64,000 bases of DNA from an uncultured Eubacteriales bacterium (GTDB lineage Bacteria; Bacillota; Clostridia; Christensenellales; Christensenellaceae): NCBI GenBank assembly GCA_948468985.1, contig CAOKKG010000001.1, positions 1 to 64,000 of the forward strand. Direction: 5' to 3'. Under the pieces are notes generated by a model. That model did not search any database, was not told the DNA's origin, and saw only the letters and a list, made by a program, of their open reading frames with translations. Positions 13,170-49,374 of this stretch are shown here, one piece after another (within the stretch, counting starts at the first letter, position 1; every line of letters begins with the position of its first letter). The translations under genes and the position numbers were made by a program.

Positions 13170-13193
13170 GAGAAAAACAGAATGTATATGAAA

Positions 13194-13326
13194 AACGGGG
13201 AGCTTGCCCGGGCAGGCTGAGAGGGAAGTTTACTTCCGACCCACGACCTGATTTGGATAATGCCAACGGAGGGGATTTTCGTCTGCCTACATAAGGCGGC
13301 ATGCCCTACACATGTCGTTTTTTATT
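13194..13326 (+). promoter_or_regulatory. TPP riboswitch controlling thiD
   Basis: ACGGGGAGC, GGCUGAGAGGG, GACCCACGACCUGAUUUGG and AUAAUGCCAACGGAGGGGA match the TPP aptamer almost base for base (13194-13275). A CGGCAU/AUGUCG hairpin followed by UUUUUU (13297-13326) is the expression-platform terminator, 25 bp before thiD. Confidence 0.95.
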
Positions 13327-40757: not shown

Positions 40758-40935
40758 GCTCGATCACCCGCTTCACCCGTTTTTTCAGTTCCTCATAGGG
40801 CAACATGACGATCCGCCCGCAGCCGGCGCACTGGATCTTATAATCCGCGCCCGCGCGGATCACCTTCCATTCCTTGCTCCCGCAAGGGTGCTGCTTTTTG
40901 GTTTCAACCCATGTCCCCACCGGATATGCCTGCAT
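40750..40935 (-). CDS. DUF951 family small protein
   Basis: A 61-residue protein of the DUF951 family, with HPCGSKEWKVIRAGADYKIQCAGCGRIVMLP showing three conserved Cys and a His likely to bind zinc. Function unknown; in Firmicutes it is often next to ychF or small housekeeping genes. Here it heads an operon with lepB and the acetate-kinase-like gene. GGGGGCGGG ribosome site. Confidence 0.88.
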   Translation of the reverse strand: MQAYPVGTWVETKKQHPCGSKEWKVIRAGADYKIQCAGCGRIVMLPYEELKKRVKRVIEHE

Positions 40936-41001: not shown

Positions 41002-41030
41002 TTGCTTTTCCATCACAAAAAGTTTATAAT
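41002..41030 (+). promoter_or_regulatory. corA promoter
   Basis: TTGCTT, 17-bp spacer, TATAAT, leaving a transcribed leader of about 150 nt before corA. Confidence 0.7.
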
Positions 41031-41062
41031 TTTTATGGATGCTCCCCGGGAGCAAAGTTTGT

Positions 41063-41152
41063 ATGGATGAGGTAGAAGATTTGGATACAGACCCTTTGTG
41101 TAAAGCAAACGATTCTCTTTTGGCAAATTTGACAACGCAAAGCGGACTGTGA
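41063..41152 (+). CDS. Putative acidic leader peptide upstream of corA
   Basis: A 29-codon ORF with an ATG, GGGAGC about 10 bases upstream, and an uninterrupted frame to TGA. The product begins MDEVEDLDTDPL, seven of its first eleven residues being Asp or Glu, followed by KANDSLLANLTTQSGL. Its ribosome site lies in a GCTCC/GGAGC hairpin (41041-41053). Its stop codon lies 8 bases before another hairpin that covers the corA start region. Short acidic/proline peptides ahead of Mg transporters (MgtL type) are known to sense low Mg2+ by ribosome destabilisation. That role here is inference from composition and position. Confidence 0.5.
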   Translation: MDEVEDLDTDPLCKANDSLLANLTTQSGL

Positions 41153-41160
41153 CAAGACCG

Positions 41161-41179
41161 CCCGCTTTGAGAAAGCGGG
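41161..41179 (+). promoter_or_regulatory. Hairpin covering the corA ribosome site
   Basis: CCCGCTTT-GAG-AAAGCGGG, 8-bp perfect stem. Its 3' arm contains the only purine-rich ribosome-site candidate (AAAGCGGG), 6 bases before the corA TTG. There is no T-run, so translational rather than transcriptional control is suggested. Confidence 0.55.
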
Positions 41180-41185
41180 TGTAGC

Positions 41186-42121
41186 TTGATCAAAATTCTT
41201 TCGACAACAACGGGAACCATGCGGGGACTTTCCAAGATTGAGCCGGGTGCGTGGATCCATCTGGGCGACCCTTCGGGGACGGAGATCGACGCGGTATCGG
41301 CCGAGCTCGGCATCGATGCGGAGCTTTTGCGGGCGCCGCTCGACGAAGAGGAATCCGCCCGCATCGACTATGAGGACGGTGTCAACACGATCATCGTGGA
41401 CATCCCACACATCGTCCCCACAAACGATGGCTTTTCATATGAAACAATCCCGCTCGGCGTATTTTTGACGCCGGAAAACATCATCACCGTCTGCCTGGAA
41501 GAGACCGCCTTGGCAGAGGATTTCTGGAGCAACCGTGTCCGCGACTTTGACACGGCGAAAAAGACGCGCTTTTTATTGCAATTGCTCTACCGCAACGCGA
41601 CCAAGTACCTGCGGTACCTGCGCATGATCGACAAGGCGTCCGATCGGCTGGAAAACAGGCTGCACAAATCCATGCGCAACCGGGAGCTCATCCAGATGCT
41701 GCGCCTCAGCAAATCACTCGTCTATTTTTCCACCTCCCTCAAGGCCAATGAGGTGATTCTGGAAAAAATCATGCGCAGCCATAATATACTAAAATACGAA
41801 GAAGATTCCGATCTTCTGGAAGATGTCATCATCGAGAACAAACAGGCCATCGAAATGGCTGGCATCTATATGGAGATCCTCTCCGGGACGATGGACGCGT
41901 TTGCCTCCCTCGTTTCCAACAACCTGAATATCGTCACGAAATTCCTCGCCTCAATGACTATCGTCATGGCGATTCCCTCCATCTTTTCCGGGTTTTGGGG
42001 CATGAATTTCGCCTCCATGCCGTTCCTCAACAATCCCTGGGGGTTCTACATCGTCCTCGGGATCTCGCTTGTAGCAACGGCGGTGGTGACCGCGATCTTC
42101 TGGAAGAAAAAAATGTTCTGA
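41186..42121 (+). CDS. corA: CorA-family magnesium/divalent cation transporter, TTG start
   Basis: A 311-residue transporter: long cytosolic N-terminal domain (GAWIHLGDPSGTEI, LDEEESARIDYEDG), a long helix, and two C-terminal membrane segments. The signature GMN is at residues 272-274 (FWGMNF), followed by WGFYIVLG and a basic tail. TTG start chosen because the family N-terminus (IKILSTT) begins there; an ATG 33 bp later would cut it off. It imports Mg2+ (or Co2+/Ni2+) down the membrane potential. The leader peptide and hairpin upstream suggest translational control. No M-box riboswitch is seen. Confidence 0.92.
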   Translation: MIKILSTTTGTMRGLSKIEPGAWIHLGDPSGTEIDAVSAELGIDAELLRAPLDEEESARIDYEDGVNTIIVDIPHIVPTNDGFSYETIPLGVFLTPENIITVCLEETALAEDFWSNRVRDFDTAKKTRFLLQLLYRNATKYLRYLRMIDKASDRLENRLHKSMRNRELIQMLRLSKSLVYFSTSLKANEVILEKIMRSHNILKYEEDSDLLEDVIIENKQAIEMAGIYMEILSGTMDAFASLVSNNLNIVTKFLASMTIVMAIPSIFSGFWGMNFASMPFLNNPWGFYIVLGISLVATAVVTAIFWKKKMF

Positions 42122-49029: not shown

Positions 49030-49103
49030 TGGCAGCCGAACTAGGATTCGAACCTAGAAAATACGAGTCAGAGTCGTAGGTGTTACCGTTACACTATTCG
49101 GCT
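49030..49103 (-). tRNA. tRNA-Gln (anticodon CUG)
   Basis: 74 nt on the minus strand. Acceptor AGCCGAA pairs with TTCGGCT, then discriminator G and encoded CCA. Anticodon stem TACGA/TCGTA with loop CTCTGAC gives CUG (Gln, codon CAG). T-loop GGTTCGAATCC is present. Confidence 0.95.
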
Positions 49104-49114
49104 ATCCGTGTCCC

Positions 49115-49292
49115 AAAAAAGGATCCCCAGGCGTGTCGTCTGCTCCATTTTGTAACCCGCCTCCCGGCAGGTGGGTAATCTGCTTAGACCTTTGTGCTTC
49201 CCATCCGCAATGGGCGTGCATTCCCAATCTATCAAGACACGAAAACCCTTTTACAAAGCGTGGGTCTAAAATCAGAGCATAACCAGCACCCC
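49115..49292 (-). ncRNA. ssrS: 6S-like RNA candidate
   Basis: A gene-free 180-nt stretch between two tRNAs that folds on the minus strand as one long irregular hairpin. TGCTC/GAGCA and TTAGACC/GGTCTAA stems flank an open bubble with a small ACCCACC/GGCGGGT-type hairpin on its 3' side. The apical element is CCCATTGCGGATGGG, like the loop of Firmicutes 6S RNA. It ends in GGGGATCC and UUUUUU. 6S RNA binds sigma-A polymerase in stationary phase. Confidence 0.55.
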
Positions 49293-49297
49293 AGGTT

Positions 49298-49374
<77 letters not shown>

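Follow-up and report, generated by a model that had tools for sequence, protein, structure and literature searches.

The window, by which we mean the whole stretch of 64,000 nt that was analysed, belongs to a small genome (1.47 Mb in 91 contigs), and the named relatives closest to it in our search were members of Christensenella. It carries a gene for a CorA-like Mg2+ transporter (Table 1), whose product reaches 121 with the TIGR00383 model, i.e. below the cut-off of 200.75, and whose best relatives are the corA genes of Christensenella and other Clostridia. The TTG start given to corA in the preliminary description of this DNA holds, with the PF01544 gene beginning at 41186. Two records labelled Methanosarcina (L052 and L083) contain a corA that is 51–53% identical to that of the window and is without a leader, and these records reflect either misbinning or transfer. 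The probable promoter of corA was absent from the list of a generic promoter scan, because its first hexamer fits the consensus at just three of six positions. Provided that transcription begins directly after this promoter, the corA leader is approximately 150 nt long, in agreement with the length proposed earlier.

Table 1. Elements of the corA leader and other annotated features of the window
Feature	Position	Strand	Remarks
TPP riboswitch	13186-13291	+	
Small DUF951 protein (PF06107)	40762-40935	-	Divergent from corA
Probable corA promoter, TTGCTT-N17-TATAAT	41002-41030	+	Read by eye; same position in siblings L002 and L003
Short stem-loop, TGCTCCCCGGGAGCA	41040-41054		Where the transcript presumably begins; similar short stems in L002 and L003; possibly a 5'-end stabiliser
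Leader ORF ribosome site, GAGGT	41069-41073	+	7 nt 5' of TTG 41081
Leader ORF, 23 codons, MDTDPLCKANDSLLANLTTQSGL	41081-41152	+	TTG start; MgtL-like M-D-x-D-P start
Region 1 (MDTDP codons)	41086-41101	+	Pairs with region 2; MFE pair probability 1.0 without a ribosome
Motif proline codon, CCU	41093-41095		
Region 2 (last leader codons)	41135-41151	+	Pairs with region 1, or with region 3 by CAAAGCGG (41138-41145)
Region 3, CGCCCGCTTTG	41159-41169	+	Arm common to anti-sequestor 2:3 and sequestor 3:4
Region 4, AAAGCGGGTG	41172-41181	+	Sequestor 3' arm; holds the corA ribosome site GGGTG (41177-41181)
corA, CorA-like Mg2+ transporter	41186-42121	+	TTG start; PF01544, 177 bits against a cut-off of 27
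6S RNA with a tRNA gene on either side (two tRNA genes)	49033-49374	-	

A short leader ORF that includes the residues DTDPL precedes corA and ends with TGA at 41150-41152. The preliminary description had read this ORF as 29 codons from ATG 41063 (MDEVEDLDTDPL), with its ribosome site inside a hairpin. Although that ATG is in frame, the extension lacks conservation, and we dropped it because relatives retain the later start only, L002 having an in-frame TAA at this place; the conserved ORF is the shorter one of Table 1, and the leaders of L002, L003 and L004 begin with TTG, TTG and GTG, respectively, each with GAGGT 7–8 nt upstream. The additional acidic residues of the longer form (MDEVED) proved to be an artefact, namely the purine-rich ribosome site GAUGAGGUAGAAGAU translated as codons, and the conserved ORF has as its ribosome site the GAGGT within this stretch, not a site in the hairpin at 41041-41053. 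The stop codon does lie 8 nt ahead of a perfect 8-bp hairpin (from 41161), as had been noted. The MDxDP motif and the start are kept in L002–L005 and across Clostridia, whereas past residue 6 the peptide is without conservation.

In order to describe this conservation, corA loci were collected from the species genome collection and from searches of the genus, family and order, oriented by tblastn, and freed of near-duplicates, which resulted in 181 loci. We scored as a leader any ORF of 8–60 aa that begins with M[DE]x0-2P, has a ribosome site and lies at most 260 nt upstream of corA. Such an ORF was present at 106 of the 181 non-redundant Clostridia corA loci, compared with 2.7 in dinucleotide shuffles, 3 of 178 in a control region further upstream and 2 of 181 on the reverse strand, so that the comparison with relatives, which had been suggested as a check, came out in favor of a conserved ORF. 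With a relaxed motif the count rose to 123 of 181, against 7.7 in shuffles, and a leader of this relaxed type was missing at 58 of the 181 loci (about one-third). The most common peptide starts were MDADP (31), MDPDE (9), MDTDP (6) and MDGDP (5). Start codons vary among leaders (GTG 28, ATG 23, TTG 5), Asp is encoded by both GAC and GAT, and Pro by all four of its codons, and it follows from this variation that the constraint acts on the peptide. Among the 123 relaxed-motif leaders, 87 have D or G as residue 4 and 85 have P as residue 5. Acidic residues are depleted in leader peptides beyond residue 5 (Asp 2.2%, Glu 2.5%), where the most frequent residue is Arg. Many leaders read M[DE]xGP and thus carry a single acidic residue, and this, like the third of loci that have no leader, counts against the attenuator model set out below. 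What is kept at the amino-acid level is an acidic/proline N-terminus, M-[DE]-x-[D/G]-P, and this is a hallmark of leaders of the MgtL/MgtQ/CorL type, as is a Mg2+ transporter gene preceded by a short ORF that has a ribosome site of its own. The earlier suggestion of an acidic/proline leader of the MgtL kind is therefore strongly supported by conservation, with the qualification that the signature is this N-terminal pattern and not a general acidic run.

The signature is also largely specific for corA. Run over 248 genomes of the order, the blind pattern GAGG-N3-10-RTG-GAY-GCN-GAY-CCN gave 26 matches, against 2 for the reversed pattern, and these comprised 22 corA leaders, 3 N-termini of CNNM proteins and 1 unrelated match. 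In the whole genome of the window, GAGG + N3-10 + DTG-GAY-NNN-GAY-CC occurs once, at the corA leader. A loose motif pattern applied to 398 genomes of the phylum was too unspecific and was set aside.

The RNA of the leader contains alternative helices that involve the corA ribosome site. In the window, the sequestor 3:4 (41159-41168 with 41172-41181) comprises the perfect 8-bp hairpin (41161-41168/41172-41179, GAG loop), and its 3' arm, read from the sequence, holds the sole ribosome-site-like stretch for corA, AAAGCGGG followed by TG, as the preliminary description had stated. Without a ribosome, 3:4 has a pair probability of 1.0 and the corA ribosome site is unpaired with a probability of 0.01; a further helix, 41153-41156:41185-41188, additionally pairs the TTG start of corA. 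A hairpin that hides this ribosome site is thus present as originally described, yet it is only one half of a mutually exclusive pair, the other half being the anti-sequestor 2:3 (41138-41145 with 41162-41169), and the pair stands out against dinucleotide shuffles (p=0.01). The duplex of regions 1 and 2 in the window is likewise stronger than in shuffles (z=-3.7, p=0.01); over all loci this pairing is weak (mean z=-0.58), and we therefore make no claim of its generality.

Exclusive helices were then evaluated across loci by comparing each leader with its shuffles for two helices that share a middle arm, a test that was designed after looks at the data. The result was p<=0.05 in 59 of 127 leaders, where 5% are expected, with a combined p of 5e-36, all of these p-values ignoring the relatedness of the loci. 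Mutually exclusive leader structures, another hallmark of the MgtL/MgtQ/CorL type, are thus found as an enrichment over loci and, with p=0.01, in the window itself. The position of arm 1 relative to the leader stop is non-random, its start falling at -16 to +11 in 42 of the 59 significant leaders vs 40% in shuffles (p=2e-6). With regard to the output, 13 of the 59 significant loci have an intrinsic terminator and 26 a ribosome-site sequestor. The last hairpin is, with its U run, an intrinsic terminator in families f25, f19 and f15, where the equivalent of 2:3 is an antiterminator; in Sedimentibacter, family f3, Lachnospiraceae and the window, it sequesters the ribosome site of corA. Control had been proposed to be translational, and we limit this term to the window type because the corresponding hairpin of relatives is often an intrinsic transcription terminator. 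Covariation, drawn from arms read individually, is seen in f25, where TAAGCCATA:TATGGCTTA in L160 is compensatory to TAAGCCTAT:ATAGGCTTA in L174, and where L251 has a further compensatory pair, CGAACCATA:TATGGTTCG.

Three leader-peptide systems of enterobacteria resemble this arrangement. MgtL, which precedes mgtA in Salmonella and E. coli, has the N-terminal EPDP motif Glu2-Pro3-Asp4-Pro5 (PMC11282234), and its translation is impaired at acidic and Pro residues in low Mg2+ (PMC11282234, PMC11552253); m1G37-dependent CC[C/U] Pro codons belong to the mgtL Mg2+ response (PMC6335274). The start M-E-P-D-P conforms to M-[DE]-x-[DG]-P, and in both systems the gene of a Mg2+ importer follows a short leader ORF, with two exclusive RNA structures and CC[C/U] Pro codons (PMC11282234, PMC11552253, PMC6335274). 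MgtL differs in that it belongs to gammaproteobacteria and acts on a P-type ATPase gene by Rho-dependent termination, whereas here the gene is corA, the outputs are intrinsic terminators or ribosome-site sequestors, and the hosts are Clostridia. MgtQ is an 8-aa ORF before mgtB of Salmonella in which Asp2 and Glu5 destabilise ribosomes, and mgtB, a Mg2+ transporter gene, is controlled at translation by a stem-loop in which its ribosome site is hidden (PMC8092293); mechanistically, MgtQ is the nearest known system to the window type. Unlike the leader described here, MgtQ sits between the genes of an operon, before mgtB, and its translation is reported to promote mgtB; the emphasis there is on Asp2 and Glu5 rather than on an Asp-Pro signature (PMC8092293). 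CorL, in the corA 5' region of E. coli and Salmonella, shares a UUG-start short ORF and two exclusive structures, and translation of corL stands in an inverse relation to corA, with a response to Mg2+ (PMC11552253). In contrast to our leaders, CorL is noted to have fewer acidic and Pro residues, is Rho-dependent and has been described in gammaproteobacteria. A 'corA motif' RNA has been reported from gammaproteobacteria only (PMC6429828).

Taken together, we consider it probable that the conserved ORF and the exclusive helices form an MgtL-like cis-acting leader-peptide attenuator, which tunes corA to the state of translation and, most likely, of cytoplasmic Mg2+. By analogy with the enterobacterial systems, Mg2+ would be the signal, drop-off or pausing at the motif would be the sensing step, and control in the window would be ON in low Mg2+. 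A ribosome starting at TTG 41081 would immediately have to translate Met-Asp-Thr-Asp-Pro, presumably a slow, ribosome-destabilising start (Asp at positions 2 and 4, Pro at position 5, a CCU codon). With enough Mg2+, the ribosome should pass the motif, reach the stop codon and occupy region 2, whereupon 3:4 would form and both the ribosome site and the start of corA would be hidden (OFF). In low Mg2+, the ribosome would pause or drop off at the motif, and starting ribosomes would keep region 1 covered, so that region 2 would be available for pairing with region 3; region 4 would be released and corA could be translated (ON). In other families, where region 4 corresponds to the second half of an intrinsic terminator, the same logic would apply at the level of transcription: a stop-bound ribosome would cover arm 1, no antiterminator would form and transcription would end, while failure at MDxDP would leave arm 1 free and allow corA to be transcribed. 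The window type could thus be seen as MgtL logic carried over to an output at translation, as in MgtQ/mgtB.

The principal alternative, which we regard as unlikely, is a coupling of opposite sign, in which the corA hairpin would be opened by the ribosome that finishes the leader, since the footprint of a ribosome on the stop codon extends into region 3, and corA would be expressed in proportion to leader translation; MDxDP would then be a constant brake, or would lower corA when translation is impaired. This reading gains from the folding of the window, in which the sequestor 3:4 is favored in most states. With region 1 masked, 3:4 still outcompetes 2:3 at equilibrium and the ribosome site is unpaired with a probability of 0.01; 2:3 is favored only with RNA polymerase at ~41168-41175, and the corA ribosome site is most exposed (0.41) with a ribosome on the leader stop, i.e. 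with 41131-41163 masked; the stop lies 8 nt before the hairpin. For the window, arm 2 begins at +9 relative to the stop, several leaders of Christensenella and of f22 have it 3–7 nt past the stop, and some leaders extend close to or into corA (L008/L091). Averaged over 100 loci, the accessibility of the corA ribosome site showed no difference between a ribosome at stop+9 and drop-off (p=0.91), in a crude comparison whose mask often covered arm 2. The preference for 3:4, the exposure by a stop-bound ribosome and this negative average count against the attenuator model and are the reasons why we keep the opposite sign as a rival. Against it, 36 of the 59 significant leaders have arm 1 beneath a stop-bound ribosome and arm 2 starting past that ribosome. 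Moreover, in the terminator families (L160, L174, L266, L251, L123) the antiterminator arm overlaps or adjoins the leader stop, and this geometry suggests that full translation of the leader means OFF, the direction adopted in the attenuator model above.

A second alternative, to which we assign a small probability, concerns the signal rather than the wiring: the leader would sense not Mg2+ but the condition of translation in general, be it through proline charging, m1G37 of tRNA-Pro, EF-P, an ABC-F factor or a ribosome-targeting drug. The common Pro at residue 5 and its codon usage speak in its favor, CCU being used at the motif in 68 of 106 leaders (64%) vs 165 of the 731 Pro codons (23%) of the same corA genes, a bias for which RNA pairing with region 2 gives no explanation. 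MgtL itself responds to EttA (PMC11282234) and TrmD (PMC8643618). On the other hand, a single Pro codon is little for an attenuator that responds to an amino acid, and the codon run for a regulated amino acid that marks trp/his-type attenuators is absent here, the leaders having one Pro and 1–2 Asp codons at the start and a variable remainder. The gene downstream is nearly always corA, which indicates an output in Mg2+, and Mg2+ and these factors may share one step.

A separate metal-binding riboswitch, with the ORF as a by-product, is very improbable. M-box RNAs (ykoK, RF00380) do control Mg2+ transport genes in Bacillota, as our leaders would, and one is present in the genome of the window (92.6 bits, G000:C5:6760-6913, L312), where it is the only one and precedes a gene for an MgtA-type ATPase (TIGR01524, magnesium-translocating P-type). 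The M-box, however, binds the metal directly and has no leader peptide; Rfam gave no match at corA, the RF00380 covariance model in particular having none at the corA leader (41 kb), and the peptide is conserved across families with synonymous codons while the RNA arms are wholly different in sequence. With an M-box elsewhere in the genome, two kinds of Mg2+ control may coexist in this organism. That a purine-rich leader should contain the ORF and the hairpin by chance is hardly credible: the total folding energy of the leader is indeed ordinary (z=-0.88), but chance is refuted by the conservation tests on both the peptide and the exclusive helices.

The three CNNM matches of the blind pattern come from one genus (L196, L197 and L198; genomes G076, G218 and G095), in which a CNNM/CBS-domain protein (PF01595) itself begins with MDADPSSIP, preceded by GAGGTGG, so that its start is built as in corA leaders. 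We take this protein to be CorC/MpfA-like, of the Mg2+ efflux kind. As a speculative extension of the attenuator model, rather doubtful in our own estimate, MDxDP with a CCU proline could be a portable ribosome-based Mg2+ sensor in Clostridia, placed before corA, where drop-off would switch expression ON, and, in one genus, at the CNNM N-terminus, where drop-off would switch it OFF, which would give opposite control of import and export through a single translational signal; this sensor would have evolved independently of enterobacterial MgtL.

Leader peptides of the MgtL logic are already known in enterobacteria for mgtA (MgtL), mgtB (MgtQ) and corA (CorL). In the open-access literature, of which our coverage was partial, we found no account of a clostridial corA preceded by such a leader; what appears to be new is an MgtL-like leader at this place, the likeness being one of working logic. 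If our reading is true, MgtL-type sensing, known from enterobacteria, would control corA over much of Clostridia, i.e. in Christensenellales, Lachnospiraceae, Sedimentibacter, Ruminiclostridium and others, and the peptide signature would persist while the output would be a terminator in some families and a ribosome-site sequestor in others. The more than 100 natural variants of one pentapeptide signature, together with their synonymous-codon data, could help to separate the rival explanations of MgtL sensing, namely acidic destabilisation, Asp/Gly-Pro bond formation, and CCU decoding by m1G37 tRNA-Pro. Finally, corA is often regarded as constitutive, and in Clostridia it would, if the model is true, be a regulated gene.
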